Virus record (IMG/VR): IMGVR_UViG_3300025732_000332
Coordinates: 1-20,803 of that record
Strand: one strand, 5' to 3'
DNA: 20,803 nt
Source: a virus
The stretch's first letter is position 1. Each line of letters begins with the position of its first letter. Below the pieces are notes generated by a model. That model was given only the letters and a program-made list of their open reading frames with translations, was not told the DNA's origin and made no database searches. Of this stretch, positions 2,013 to 13,557 are shown piece by piece. A program made the position numbers and the translations under genes.

Positions 2013-2483
2013 CTACTGAAACAAATAATCTTTCCATTCAGAAACTTTTGTTTTCTGAAGATCAAGAACTATTCGGCTAATTGGAGATTCTGGAATTCTC
2101 TTCAAAACCATATTGGTTTCTTTGAGGAGTTTATCTCCTTTTTTGAGATTACAAGATGTGCAACAAGCAACTAGATTATCCCAAGTATCTTTTCCACCTT
2201 TAGAACGAGGAACTACGTGATCAATTGTAAGATCATTTTTAGACCCACAATATTGACATTCGTGGTCATCCCGTTTATAGATGAGTGCTCTCGTTGGGTA
2301 ATCGGATCTTCCATAGGAAAATGGAATTTTCACATAATTTACCAAACGAATAATTCTCTTGGAGATGAGTTTTGCTTTTTGTTTGAAGAGCAAAACAATT
2401 GCACGTTTCCAATTAGTGAAGTGTAGTGGTTCGTAAGAACTGTTCAGAACTAGTATAGTCGAATTTGGTTCTACTAATTCCAT
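2013..2483 (-). CDS. HNH endonuclease (McrA/HNH_5-like, free-standing)
   Basis: A 156-aa protein. After a ~60-residue N-terminal region comes a classic zinc-HNH fold: CQYC at 76-79, the catalytic pair D88-H89 in TIDHVVPRSKGG, N103 in WDNLV, and the second zinc pair near 107-111 (CCTSC) followed by NLKKGD. These are the metal- and DNA-cutting residues of the betabetaalpha-metal fold. Its position between tRNA-Arg(ACG) and tRNA-Leu suits a homing endonuclease living inside a tRNA cluster, but closely related HNH proteins also occur as stand-alone genes in cyanobacteria and their phages, so the homing role is inferred. Shine-Dalgarno AGGA lies 4-7 bases before the ATG, and CTAAATA is at 2506-2512. 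Confidence 0.85.
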   Translation of the reverse strand: MELVEPNSTILVLNSSYEPLHFTNWKRAIVLLFKQKAKLISKRIIRLVNYVKIPFSYGRSDYPTRALIYKRDDHECQYCGSKNDLTIDHVVPRSKGGKDTWDNLVACCTSCNLKKGDKLLKETNMVLKRIPESPISRIVLDLQKTKVSEWKDYLFQ

Positions 2484-3537: not shown

Positions 3538-3814
3538 CGTCTCAGGAGGGACTCGAACCCCCGACCAACTGCTTAGCTTACCACTACGGATTTCTCCGCC
3601 ATTTCTGTTTGTGGTCTGGACTTTCTCTTTACCATATCCCAAAGGACTTAGGCACTTCCCGTAAAGTCTCTACACCTTCATCTTATGATGCTTGGCTCGG
3701 GATTGCCATTTTAAAGGGTTCCCCGAATTTGAGAAGTTACATTCATAAAGTTTCCTTTATGACGCTCCATTTATGTTTAAGGCAGATGCTCTATTCCGAC
3801 TGAGCTACTGAGAC
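3538..3814 (-). tRNA. tRNA-Arg(UCU) interrupted by a group I intron
   Basis: Exon 1 (3779-3814) carries acceptor GTCTCAG, D arm GCTC/GAGC and half of the anticodon arm, ending in CTT. Exon 2 (3538-3576) begins CTAA-GCAGT and carries T arm GGGGG-TTCGAGT-CCCTC and acceptor CTGAGAC with discriminator G. Joined, they give a 75-nt tRNA with a 7-base loop CTTCTAA (anticodon UCU), a perfect acceptor stem and a T arm like bacterial tRNA-Arg. The splice point between U34 and C35 obeys the group I rule of U before the intron and G at its end. No CCA is encoded. Confidence 0.9.
3577..3778 (-). ncRNA. Group I self-splicing intron (202 nt, no ORF)
   Basis: The insert has the conserved group I core in order. 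TTCGGGGAACCC (element P) and AATCCCGAGCCAAGC (element Q) pair as P4 through TCGGG/CCCGA. GGTGTAGAGACT (element R) pairs with AGCC of Q as P6. AAGAGAAAGTCC (element S) pairs with R as P7 through GACTT/AAGTC. It begins after U and ends in G. There is no room for an encoded endonuclease. The nearest one is the HNH gene 89 bases beyond the 3' splice site. P1 is the part I could not pair convincingly. Small tRNA group I introns are known in cyanobacteria (Leu, Arg, fMet); in a phage tRNA they are rare. Confidence 0.85.
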
Positions 3815-3815
3815 A

Positions 3816-3907
3816 AGAGACCTCCCTGTTTATGCATCGTTGAGAGGCATGGGAGGGGGCAGGACTTACACAGGGTTTGGACCCCTGTTGCCTATGAAAG
3901 TATTGTA
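3816..3907 (-). other. Structured intergenic segment between the 152-aa gene and tRNA-Arg(UCU)
   Basis: Two stems are seen: ACAGGG/CCCTGT closed further out by GGCA/TGCC (about 3863-3895), and CCTCCC/GGGAGG (about 3820-3856). There is no T-run after either, no D-arm-like sequence and no open frame. They may be RNA processing or stability elements in front of the intron-containing tRNA. Confidence 0.4.
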
Positions 3908-10011: not shown

Positions 10012-11106
10012 TCAAATTTTACAACTTTCGCAATCTTCCTCTTCAGCACCAGAAAGTTCTTGAAGAAGTGATTGAAGATTTGATTTTTCCTCAACTACTT
10101 CATCAGTTTTAATATCATAAGTGTTTTGATAGTATGCTGTTTTCCAACCATAGCGATAACAGTTCAAAAAGTCATTTGCCATAACTGAAGTTGGTACTTC
10201 ATTGTTATCATAATTCTCTGGATTGTAACTCCAGTTACCAGAAATAGCTTGGTCAAAGAATTTTTGCATTACTGCAACAACATTAATATACCCAGTATTG
10301 TTAGGCATATCCCACAGAAGCGTATAGTTGTTCTTGAGAGTATGATACTGTGGAACAATCTGTTTGAGCGGTCCTTTTTTAGATTTCTTAACGGACAAAT
10401 AATCTCTTGGTGGTTCAATTCCATTAGTTGCGTTTGACACAACGGAACTGCTCTCCGATGGCATCTGTGCAGACAGTGTTGAGTGTCTGAGACCATATTC
10501 CAAGATAGATGCTCTAAGAGTTTCCCAATCATGCTCAAGTTCAATAGAAGTAATTTCGTCTACATCTTTTTTATAGGTATCTATTGGAAGAATACCATCA
10601 GCATACTTAGTACGACCAAAGTATTCACAATGTCCTTTCTCTTTAGCAAGTTGATTGGACGCTTTCAGAAGATAATATTGGAATGCTTCGGTAAGTCCAT
10701 GAACAGCATTCCATGCTTCTTGGTCTGCATAATTGTATCCAAGTTTTGCCAAATAGTGTGCCAGACCAATAAACCCTATGCCAAGTGAACGACGTGCCTT
10801 GGTGGCGATTTCTGCCGCTGCTACGGGGTATTTTTGATAGTCAATCAACTCATCCAAACCACGAACAGAAAGGTCACAAAGTTCTTCAAGTTCTTCATCA
10901 GATTTCACTTTACCGACATTAATGGCCGAAAGAATACAAAGAGCAATCTCACCATTTGTATCGTCAATGTGCTGAATAGGATAAGTTGGAAGAGTAATTT
11001 CCTGACAATTATGAACTAGAATATCATTTGCGAAGAAATTATGAGTTCCTTCTACAGTAATATCATAAACTGGAATTTCTTCTTCAAGATATTCAATCTT
11101 TAACAT
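10012..11106 (-). CDS. nrdA: NrdA C-terminal half, preceded by an intein C-domain
   Basis: A 364-aa protein. Residues 1-33 are an intein C-domain: VYDITVEGTHNFFANDIL (block F) and VHN just before Cys34 (block G). From Cys34 on it is the C-terminal part of class Ia NrdA: CQEITLPTYP, the redox Cys in GEIALCILSA, ATNGIEPPR, and the C-terminal CESC pair that passes electrons to the active site. Splicing to the upstream half gives 434+331 = 765 residues (E. coli 761), and Cys34 becomes the radical cysteine equivalent to E. coli C439. The gene has its own AGGAG Shine-Dalgarno, and the ATG overlaps the GIY-YIG stop by 7 bases, so translation is coupled. Alone, this half could not be active. Confidence 0.95.
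   Translation of the reverse strand: MLKIEYLEEEIPVYDITVEGTHNFFANDILVHNCQEITLPTYPIQHIDDTNGEIALCILSAINVGKVKSDEELEELCDLSVRGLDELIDYQKYPVAAAEIATKARRSLGIGFIGLAHYLAKLGYNYADQEAWNAVHGLTEAFQYYLLKASNQLAKEKGHCEYFGRTKYADGILPIDTYKKDVDEITSIELEHDWETLRASILEYGLRHSTLSAQMPSESSSVVSNATNGIEPPRDYLSVKKSKKGPLKQIVPQYHTLKNNYTLLWDMPNNTGYINVVAVMQKFFDQAISGNWSYNPENYDNNEVPTSVMANDFLNCYRYGWKTAYYQNTYDIKTDEVVEEKSNLQSLLQELSGAEEEDCESCKI
11008..11106 (-). other. Split intein C-domain (Int-C) coding segment
   Basis: It codes for 33 residues from the start codon to the terminal Asn. The motif THNFFANDILVHN followed by Cys is diagnostic of intein blocks F and G: penultimate His, terminal Asn that cyclises, and Cys at +1 as the second nucleophile. 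The length is like the ~35-residue Int-C of natural split inteins. Confidence 0.93.
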
Positions 11107-11771
11107 TTTTTTCTCCTATTTTGTTCTAAAAGTTGTTTAGCAAGTTTTCTTTGAGTTTCGTCTCTATAATAAGGATTATACACCAATCCAGTTTGTTCTT
11201 CAATAGATTTATAAAAGTTTTTATGTTTCCCACCAAATCTATTTTTAGAGAAATGTTTTGGAAACTTAACATTCAATTCATTAAGGGCAAACTCAACTAT
11301 TCTTTGTCTTCCACCAATAAATCCATATTTTTTAGCAAACTTTACACCTACTTCTATAAGTTCTTCATCAGTGTATCCAGAATGGTTTGGATTATTAGAA
11401 CCAGTAGTTCTTATAGAAATATCATTTCTCCACTGTTCCTGAACCTGCTGCGAGCATCTTGGAAGCATCCATCCACCAGTTCCACCTGAAGTAGCATTAT
11501 AACCTTTAGTATCACTCTCAAAGAGTTTAATGAAGTGGGTTTCCTTTTCATTAATAAAGTTTTCATCTTCAGTTTGGTAAGTTTCAATCACAGATAAGTC
11601 CCAACAATCTTCACCATATTTTCTAATTGCCGAATGAAATCTAAATTTAGAACCATTTCTTGCCGATGATAAATGACGATTCCAACGATGCTCCAAAGAA
11701 TATTCAGTTTTTCCTATATAAGGTTTTCCGTTTTTCTTATTGGTAATCTTATAAACAATATATGTTTTCAT
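11100..11771 (-). CDS. GIY-YIG homing endonuclease inserted between the nrdA halves
   Basis: A 223-aa protein. The core MKTYIVYKITNKKNGKPYIG (1-20) has the GIY-like IVY and intact YIG. It is followed by Arg in EHRWNRHL, and Glu in NEKETHFIKLFE (about 74-85) is the metal ligand. The C-terminal ~120 residues are basic and helical with GGRQRIVEFALNEL and FGGKHKNF, a likely DNA-recognition region. It has no intein residues and is a separate protein, not fused to either intein half. Its stop overlaps the second nrdA half by 7 bases. A consensus late promoter within a 10-bp inverted repeat stands just upstream. It is probably the homing enzyme that keeps the fractured locus mobile. Confidence 0.9.
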   Translation of the reverse strand: MKTYIVYKITNKKNGKPYIGKTEYSLEHRWNRHLSSARNGSKFRFHSAIRKYGEDCWDLSVIETYQTEDENFINEKETHFIKLFESDTKGYNATSGGTGGWMLPRCSQQVQEQWRNDISIRTTGSNNPNHSGYTDEELIEVGVKFAKKYGFIGGRQRIVEFALNELNVKFPKHFSKNRFGGKHKNFYKSIEEQTGLVYNPYYRDETQRKLAKQLLEQNRRKKC

Positions 11772-11776
11772 TATAT

Positions 11777-11822
11777 GAAGTGTAATCTCATAACTATTTA
11801 TAAAATATAGAAATTACACTTC
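11777..11822 (-). promoter_or_regulatory. Inverted repeat around a late promoter (I-TevI-like switch)
   Basis: GAAGTGTAAT (11813-11822) and ATTACACTTC (11777-11786) are a perfect 10-bp inverted repeat with a 26-base loop. TATAAATA, the exact T4 late promoter, lies in the loop at 11795-11802. The 3' arm ends 5 bases before the endonuclease ATG, so RNA reading through from nrdA would fold and block ribosome entry. Late RNA would start near 11788, after the 5' arm, and stay open. The upstream arm also lies just past the nrdA-N stop. Confidence 0.75.
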
Positions 11823-11829
11823 CTATTTT

Positions 11830-13557
11830 TTAGCAATCAACAATCAATTCAGTTGGATTTATAACTACCAATTCATCACTTTCAGTTAAGTCCTTCGCCA
11901 TCACATATCCACGATTTTTGGTGAATACTTTATGGTCTGGCGTAACCACAATACTCTTTCCACTTTCTTCATCAGTAATTTTCATTACCTTTGCTTTTGG
12001 TGATGTTTGAGCAAAAGCAGTTATAAACTTATAATCTTCAGTTTTTTTAGTAATATCGTGTGAAAGAACTTCTACCAATTGATAAGGAGTATCTGCGTAT
12101 TGTTGACGATTAAGTAAAAGTCCGTCTTTGGAAAATTGCTCCAATTCTTTAATTTGAATATCTTTTGGAGTTCCTTCAATAACTTCAATCACTCCGTCTT
12201 CATTATCAATATAGGTATTAATCCTAACTTTAATCCAAGTATCACCAGAAACACAAAGATTACTCATTTCAACTTTATCCTTAAAAGAACTATGAGAATT
12301 ACAATGATCTATATTCATAATATAGATGCGACCCGTTTCTGCACGCTCTTTAAGAAGGTTGAGGATGAGTTCTTGCGCTTTAACAGTTTTTTTCGGAACG
12401 GTCGGATCCTTTTCATACGAAACATAGAGATCGTCAAAACCAGGGAGTCCAAAGTTACTATAAAGTCCAGGTACATCATGTGGGGAGAAAAGCGTGATAT
12501 CACCATCCTGAATGAACCTCTCATAGAAGAGTTTGCTGATTTGAATACTGTAGTCGAGTTTGCGAACACGGTTATCCTCCGTACCTTTATTGTTTTTCAG
12601 CACTAGGATGTCTTCGATTTCTTGGTGCCAGATTGGGAAGTGGACAGTTGCGCTTCCACCTCTAATGCCATTTTGTGTGCAGCATCGGACAGTTGCCTCA
12701 AACTTTTTGAGGAAAGGGACAACACCCGTATGTTGAACTTCTCCACCTCTAATTTTACTGTTGATGCCACGGATTCGACCTGCGTTGATGCCGATTCCCG
12801 CCCTCTGTGCAACATACCTACCAATTGCCATATCAGAGCTAAAGATAGAATCGAGGGTGTCATCAACATCAACAAGAACACAGCTAGCAAATTGTCGAAG
12901 TGGAGTTCTAACCCCTGCCATGATAGGCGTGGGAATGTTGATCTTGTGTTTTGAAATTGCGTCATAGTACCTCTTAACATATGACATACGGGTTTCTTTT
13001 GGATACTCTGCAAAGATAGTCAGAGAAATCATCATGTACATAAATTGTGGCGTTTCATATACACCTCCACTACTTCTATCTTGCACAAGGTACTTGTCAA
13101 CGACTTGACGTAAACCTGCATAAGTGAATAGAAAGTCGCGGTCATGATCAACATAAGAATTAGCTTTTTCAATCTCTTCCTTTGAATACTTAGTATAAAT
13201 TTCATTATCATAAACGTCAGCATTTACACAATTGTAAATGTGCTGCTCAAGGGTAGGAAGTTCCCTCATCTTTCCATAAAGTTGCTTGCGAACAGAAAAA
13301 AGAAGAAGACGAGCAGCAACATACTGATAATTTGGATGATCCAAATCAATCAAATCAGAAGCAGAACGAATCAGAATTTCTTGAATCTCTCCTGTCGTAA
13401 TTCCATCATAAAATTGAATCCCAGAGGTCATTTCAACTTGACTCGCAGAGACACCTGCAAGACCTCTACATGCCTCTTCAACCATTAAATGCATCTTATC
13501 TAGGTCAAGAGATTCAATTCTCCCATCCCTTTTTTTAACTTTTGTTCCGTTGCTCAT
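11830..13557 (-). CDS. nrdA: NrdA N-terminal half, followed by an intein N-domain
   Basis: A 575-aa protein. Residues 1-434 are the N-terminal part of class Ia NrdA: an ATP-cone (KVKKRDGRIESLDLDKMH near the start, the allosteric site), the redox Cys in QFASCVLVD, the specificity-site region, and RIYIMNIDHCNSHSSF running to SNL. At residue 435 the reading turns into an intein N-domain (CVSGDTW...). The break lies between Leu and the catalytic Cys of the N-x-C-x-E signature. A stop follows after 141 intein residues. It overlaps the primase gene by 23 bases and is transcribed with it from the promoter near 14,550. NrdA binds and reduces ribonucleotides. Confidence 0.95.
   Translation of the reverse strand: MSNGTKVKKRDGRIESLDLDKMHLMVEEACRGLAGVSASQVEMTSGIQFYDGITTGEIQEILIRSASDLIDLDHPNYQYVAARLLLFSVRKQLYGKMRELPTLEQHIYNCVNADVYDNEIYTKYSKEEIEKANSYVDHDRDFLFTYAGLRQVVDKYLVQDRSSGGVYETPQFMYMMISLTIFAEYPKETRMSYVKRYYDAISKHKINIPTPIMAGVRTPLRQFASCVLVDVDDTLDSIFSSDMAIGRYVAQRAGIGINAGRIRGINSKIRGGEVQHTGVVPFLKKFEATVRCCTQNGIRGGSATVHFPIWHQEIEDILVLKNNKGTEDNRVRKLDYSIQISKLFYERFIQDGDITLFSPHDVPGLYSNFGLPGFDDLYVSYEKDPTVPKKTVKAQELILNLLKERAETGRIYIMNIDHCNSHSSFKDKVEMSNLCVSGDTWIKVRINTYIDNEDGVIEVIEGTPKDIQIKELEQFSKDGLLLNRQQYADTPYQLVEVLSHDITKKTEDYKFITAFAQTSPKAKVMKITDEESGKSIVVTPDHKVFTKNRGYVMAKDLTESDELVVINPTELIVDC
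11833..12255 (-). other. Split intein N-domain (Int-N) coding segment
   Basis: It codes for 141 residues. Block A is CVSGDTW with Cys1 as nucleophile. Block B is VVTPDHKVFTKNRG with the T-x-x-H catalytic pattern, then KDLTESDELVVI closes the domain. At 141 residues it is longer than the usual ~100 for Int-N. The extra residues (about 35-80, with EQFSKDGLLLNRQQYADTPY) look like an insertion between blocks A and B. No endonuclease domain is present. Confidence 0.93.

Follow-up and report, generated by a model that had tools for sequence, protein, structure and literature searches.

A group I intron in the anticodon loop of a cyanophage tRNA-Arg(UCU) gene and a neighbouring HNH endonuclease gene that probably helps to spread it

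The window, by which we mean the whole 20,803-nt stretch of viral DNA that was analysed, has matches to phage families such as nrdA, nrdB and DNA primase, and the nearest matches to its tRNA-Arg come from Synechococcus phages. From these phage families and tRNA matches, the window is a fragment of a T4-like cyanophage. Its minus strand carries a split tRNA-Arg(UCU) gene, with exons at 3814-3779 and 3576-3538 and a 202-nt intron (3778-3577) between them. A first-pass annotation had placed an intron-bearing tRNA-Arg of phage origin here; its coordinates and size were correct, the strand being minus, and the phage origin was upheld. There is no long ORF on the intron's own strand. The features of the locus, in the order of the minus strand, are as follows.

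3930-3902, minus strand: promoter, TTGACA, 17 nt, TACAAT (11 of 12 consensus positions; -35 and -10 kept in most aligned relatives)
3895-3820, minus strand: leader RNA with a covarying 5' hairpin and an abiF RNA hairpin (RF03085, 3820-3856), from Rfam and alignment
3814-3779, minus strand: exon 1 of tRNA-Arg(UCU), last base U34 (alignment to the intronless tRNA-Arg of phage S-SZBM1; ARAGORN on the spliced sequence)
3778-3577, minus strand: group I intron, 202 nt, terminal G (Rfam RF00028, 64.7 bits; empty site; covariation)
3769-3768, minus strand: P10 site for exon 2, the two bases preceding the guide (covariation)
3767-3765, minus strand: internal guide GAG, pairing with exon-1 CUU (P1, 3779-3781), U-G at the splice site (P1 invariant)
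3737-3654, minus strand: P3-P4-P5-P6 and the 5' strand of P7 (two-sided change somewhere in 7 of 7 P3 pairs)
3668-3618, minus strand: P7 (3668-3663 with 3624-3619; 3670 with 3618) and P8 (3652-3632), from the hand-written structure and covariation
3615-3580, minus strand: P9, two hairpins with a GAAA loop on each (hand-written structure and covariation)
3576-3538, minus strand: exon 2 of tRNA-Arg(UCU), first base C35 (S-SZBM1 alignment; ARAGORN)
3488-3018, minus strand: free-standing HNH endonuclease gene, 156 aa, 50 nt past the tRNA (Pfam HNH_2; PHROG; conserved position)

Elsewhere in the window, NrdA is apparently interrupted by a split intein (10012-13557, minus strand), the N-half of which ends the part at 11830-13557 and the C-half of which starts the part at 10012-11106; a GIY-YIG endonuclease gene lies between the NrdA halves at 11100-11771. 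There is also a 38-bit tRNA-like match at 2605-2674 on the minus strand, which ARAGORN did not report. It has mismatches in several pairs and may be a decayed tRNA gene.

ARAGORN without its intron mode missed the split gene. It recognised a tRNA-Arg(tct) once the 202 nt were deleted, and with the intron mode it gave a 202-nt intron. This agrees with the earlier proposal that the joined exons form a tRNA-Arg(UCU) with a 7-base anticodon loop. An empty site was found in the Synechococcus phage S-SZBM1 (OL473597), where an intronless tRNA-Arg reads CTGCCTT|CTAAGCAG and is continuous across the predicted junction with no gap or overlap; from exon 2 onward it is identical to the window at 41 of 42 bases. 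Intronless tRNA-Arg(tct) genes also occur in S-SRM01 and two ACG-2014 phages. Shifting the junction by one base either way was rejected, as the sequence of the intronless allele is recovered only with U34|C35. In the mature anticodon stem, 27-43 is a U-U mismatch and the other four pairs are standard. The codon to be read, AGA, is the commonest Arg codon in 15 genes of the window (99 of 206).

The covariance model Rfam Intron_gpI (RF00028) matched 3789-3595 on the minus strand with 64.7 bits (cut-off 50, E 1.3e-14), so the group I assignment of the first-pass annotation passed the search that it had proposed as a check. The folding energy of the intron was also low relative to shuffles (z = -3.4). 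To examine the structure, 35 introns were aligned with 9 exon bases at either end and P1-P10 were assigned by hand. Pairing was seen in 91.4% of cells, compared with 28-46% when partners were slid by 1-3 columns. Two-sided change occurred in 37 of 59 pairs (24 in shuffles, 12-16 when slid), and the covariation score was 0.388 (0.124 in shuffles, at most 0.099 when slid). In the group I core from P3 to P9, covariation was seen in P3, P7, P8 and P9; at one pair of P7, three sequences show a change from G-C to A-U. Together with the Rfam match, this covariation bears out the P, Q, R and S elements that had been read from the letters.

P1 is CUU/GAG in 35 of 35 introns, with only three pairs and a U-G at the splice site. 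An alternative register, GCCUU/GGAGC, was discarded; it needs a C-A pair, while CUU/GAG pairs in every intron and frees the preceding bases for P10. The U-G at the 5' splice site and the terminal G are invariant in the 35 sequences, but the search that collected them demanded both, so the independent support for these two features is the empty site. With the exact junction in S-SZBM1, the U/G splice-site rule holds as first proposed. P10 covaries with exon 2, being UA/UA mostly in Leu hosts and GC/AU mostly in Arg hosts; the first P10 pair is UA in 23 sequences, GC in 10 and GU in 1. In the window the first pair forms and the second is U-U. Such covariation between intron and exon is what a splicing intron needs, and it suggests that this intron splices.

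The U-U pairs in the anticodon stem and in the second position of P10, and the short P1, would also fit a degenerate intron that has inactivated the tRNA gene. We regard this as extremely improbable because the core is intact and covarying, the exons form a tRNA and near-identical copies persist across many contigs. The compact core without large peripheral domains, the tRNA host and the relatives in bacterial tRNA-Leu(UAA) genes are the marks of IC3, the subgroup name for such tRNA introns, which also stands in a title on the reference list of PMC3984707. By these sequence features the intron is IC3-like.

To see how widespread such introns are, IMG/VR was searched with a pattern that joins the intron 3' end to tRNA-Arg exon 2. 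This matched 34 stretches, 33 of which carry the intron; the other, L012, is intronless and was dropped as a chance match. The intron core pattern matched at least 119 IMG/VR stretches, and 9 stretches among 84,980 bacterial and archaeal genomes. Candidate splices were tested by a script with ARAGORN for tRNA assignment. Among the matches listed, and before artefacts were removed, introns were in tRNA-Leu(UAA) at least 73 times, in tRNA-Arg(UCU) at least 36 times and in tRNA-Lys(UUU) at least once, all after position 34. Two apparent 230-nt tRNA-Leu introns (L084 and L093) were wrong splice calls and were excluded from the tree and alignment. Because several of the Leu calls are artefacts (these two and their copies) and three are bacterial, we give the total as at least 100 viral tRNA-Leu(UAA), tRNA-Arg(UCU) and tRNA-Lys(UUU) genes in IMG/VR with related introns at 34/35. 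A tRNA-Leu of the 735-kb huge-phage record LR756501 also has such an intron, and phage tail fibre and RIIA families are encoded on sampled intron-bearing contigs.

The intron tree has at least four changes between Arg and non-Arg hosts, with bootstraps that are not fully settled, and these changes indicate that the introns switched tRNA genes. Some intron-bearing phage tRNAs with anticodon UAA (L058, L071, L100 and similar) differ from ordinary tRNA-Leu in that their variable region is short. On two phage contigs (L064 and L098), Arg and Leu intron-bearing tRNA genes are about 600 nt apart. A 2014 review placed every phage intron then known in protein-coding genes, despite the many phage tRNA genes (PMC3984707), and our narrow search of the open-access literature found no later report of phage tRNA introns. 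Therefore, as far as the open-access literature searched shows, a phage tRNA is a new host for such introns. The earlier description of introns of this kind as unusual in phage matches the 2014 review, but the count of at least 100 viral tRNA genes makes them common in phage metagenomes.

The protein encoded past the tRNA matched Pfam HNH_2 with 34.7 bits (cut-off 21), and PHROG also returned an HNH endonuclease. An HNH homologue lies on the same strand 88-90 nt past the intron (at most 87 nt in one) in 26 of the 30 window-type tRNA-Arg genes that carry the intron. This is the gene arrangement expected of collaborative homing, with a free-standing endonuclease gene adjoining an intron that has none of its own. 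Two of the remaining genes keep the intron beside only a remnant or fragment of the HNH gene (L027 and L031), and two have no HNH gene (L022 and L077). As collaborative homing would also predict, the gene adjoined none of the 11 intronless alleles that share the CTGCCTT/CTAAGCAG arm (10 stretches with a cyanophage-type tRNA plus S-SZBM1). These 10 belong to a set of 120 intronless stretches with this anticodon arm, in which no convincing HNH copy was found in the DNA examined, and the sole trace was a weak 54-residue partial match (L282, E 0.002). The linkage of 26/30 versus 0/11 gives p = 4e-7, which overstates the evidence because it is inflated by relatedness among the contigs that carry the intron.

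A separate protein search showed that the HNH gene also flanks intronless tRNA-Arg genes on either side, so a strict association of enzyme and intron was abandoned. Nearly all of these intronless genes have different anticodon stems, such as ATTCTCTTCTAAAGAAT in L173. A second HNH gene of the window (2013-2483, minus strand) lies 38 nt past tRNA-Arg(ACG) at 2521-2595, and its homologues were seen in six stretches with intronless tRNA-Arg(UCU), one of them partial. Other tRNA introns are followed by other endonucleases, namely GIY-YIG (L048), HNH (L071) and a weak HNH match (L092), and in L122 a weak HNH match is within the intron. In the members sampled of the large tRNA-Leu intron group there was no adjacent endonuclease. 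In L038, which lies on a 251,780-bp phage contig, an HNH homologue with 57% identity is antisense in the P5 region of a 690-nt intron, and the spliced gene is a tRNA-Arg(tct).

These data bear on whether the HNH enzyme could be an unrelated homing endonuclease that landed on tRNA-Arg beside a truly splicing intron, itself inherited vertically or reverse-spliced into CUU loops. The presence of the family on both sides of intronless tRNA-Arg and the retention of the intron in L022 and L077, which lack the gene, fit this explanation. The tree also has at least four Arg/non-Arg changes while CUU/GAG stays constant, as reverse splicing would predict. Against it, gene and intron co-occur in alleles of the same exon arm and are otherwise jointly absent, and one homologue is inside an intron. 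We consider an unrelated enzyme unlikely, although it deserves serious consideration. The gene arrangement, the absence of the enzyme from matching intronless alleles and the composite intron of L038 lead us to favour collaborative homing. The first-pass suggestion that mobility depends on the free HNH gene thus gains comparative support from the 26/30 and 0/11 counts, but the dependence is not absolute, since the intron persists in L022 and L077. Given these two, the remnants in L027 and L031 and the sampled Leu introns without an endonuclease, mobility need not depend on the HNH gene now.

The abiF RNA (RF03085, 51.7 bits, cut-off 37) is 5 nt ahead of the tRNA-Arg and behind the same promoter, the position of which places the probable transcript start near 3895. 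In the aligned relatives the promoter is conserved, and a second hairpin besides that of abiF covaries. The exact abiF core was found at 113 viral places, about 70 of which lie no more than 150 nt from a same-strand tRNA gene; the distance is mostly 13-18 nt and tRNA-Arg(UCU) is the most frequent neighbour. The Abi_2 domain was missing from all 40 viral records tested and from both complete cyanophage genomes in which abiF RNA was found. In C. difficile, an AbiF toxin is neutralised by RNA with abiF motifs (PMC12373285), and one abiF-type RNA has been described in a cyanophage in the S-CREM1 paper (PMC9964418). We hypothesise that the orphan abiF RNA could be an antitoxin mimic or decoy of a host AbiF toxin.

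The intron itself could be more than selfish, for example by keeping host anticodon nucleases off the anticodon loop until a late stage, together with the upstream abiF RNA. The anticodon itself is split and the transcript is probably common with the antitoxin-type RNA, both of which suit such a role; however, abiF RNA also precedes intronless tRNA-Arg and the role is purely hypothetical, so we judge it very improbable. A related and doubtful proposal is an anti-defence cassette, in which abiF RNA, released when RNase P processes the tRNA 5' end, would bind and silence a host AbiF RNase, the intron would keep the anticodon loop of a replacement tRNA from being read or cut until it is spliced, and the HNH gene would spread the cassette.

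Our preferred reading, which we consider likely, is that an IC3-like self-splicing intron splits tRNA-Arg(UCU) at U34/C35 and spreads by collaborative homing with the adjacent HNH enzyme. Transcription from the 3930-3902 promoter would yield a precursor, in which the folded intron would pair its guide GAG with exon-1 CUU. A guanosine cofactor bound at P7 would drive splicing, and the joined exons would make a functional tRNA for AGA codons. The HNH enzyme would cut intronless tRNA-Arg genes at or near the insertion site, and repair would copy the intron and enzyme gene together; the intron would shield its own allele from cleavage. Transcription, splicing, DNA cleavage and the cleavage site are in this scheme predictions from sequence.

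The introns described here make up a large population in phage tRNA genes; all of them occupy one anticodon position, they are found in three tRNA species and they have switched tRNA host repeatedly. Stages that have been proposed for the birth of mobile introns are represented as well, since an endonuclease occurs next to a tRNA gene that lacks the intron, next to one that has it, and within an intron. With these stages and host switches, collaborative homing and a route of tRNA introns between phages and bacteria become directly testable.

Compact group IC3 introns are well known in bacterial tRNA genes, including the tRNA-Leu(UAA) of cyanobacteria and chloroplasts and the tRNA-Ile of Azoarcus. 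The window's intron shares their core elements and size near 200 nt, but it sits in a phage tRNA-Arg(UCU) gene and is linked to an HNH gene. Alphaproteobacterial tRNA-Leu introns (L148, L151 and L156) have the same insertion at 34/35 and are 72-74% identical to it. Group I introns of Pelagibacter phage HTVC120P and the uncultured phage KT997847 have core stretches with 76-87% DNA identity; they sit among capsid protein genes, whereas the window's intron is in a tRNA. T4 SegB resembles the window's enzyme in being a homing endonuclease inside a phage tRNA cluster near tRNA-Arg, but it is of the GIY-YIG family, has no intron and cuts a tRNA intergenic region (PMC2988022). PMC6083498, which cites Zeng et al. 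2009, summarises collaborative homing of the cyanophage psbA intron with F-CphI. In that summary of the S-PM2 system, as in the window, the endonuclease gene is beside, and not inside, the intron-bearing cyanophage gene. As far as this account goes, the window differs in that its target is a tRNA gene, its enzyme is HNH_2 and not of the Endo VII type, and cleavage is predicted.
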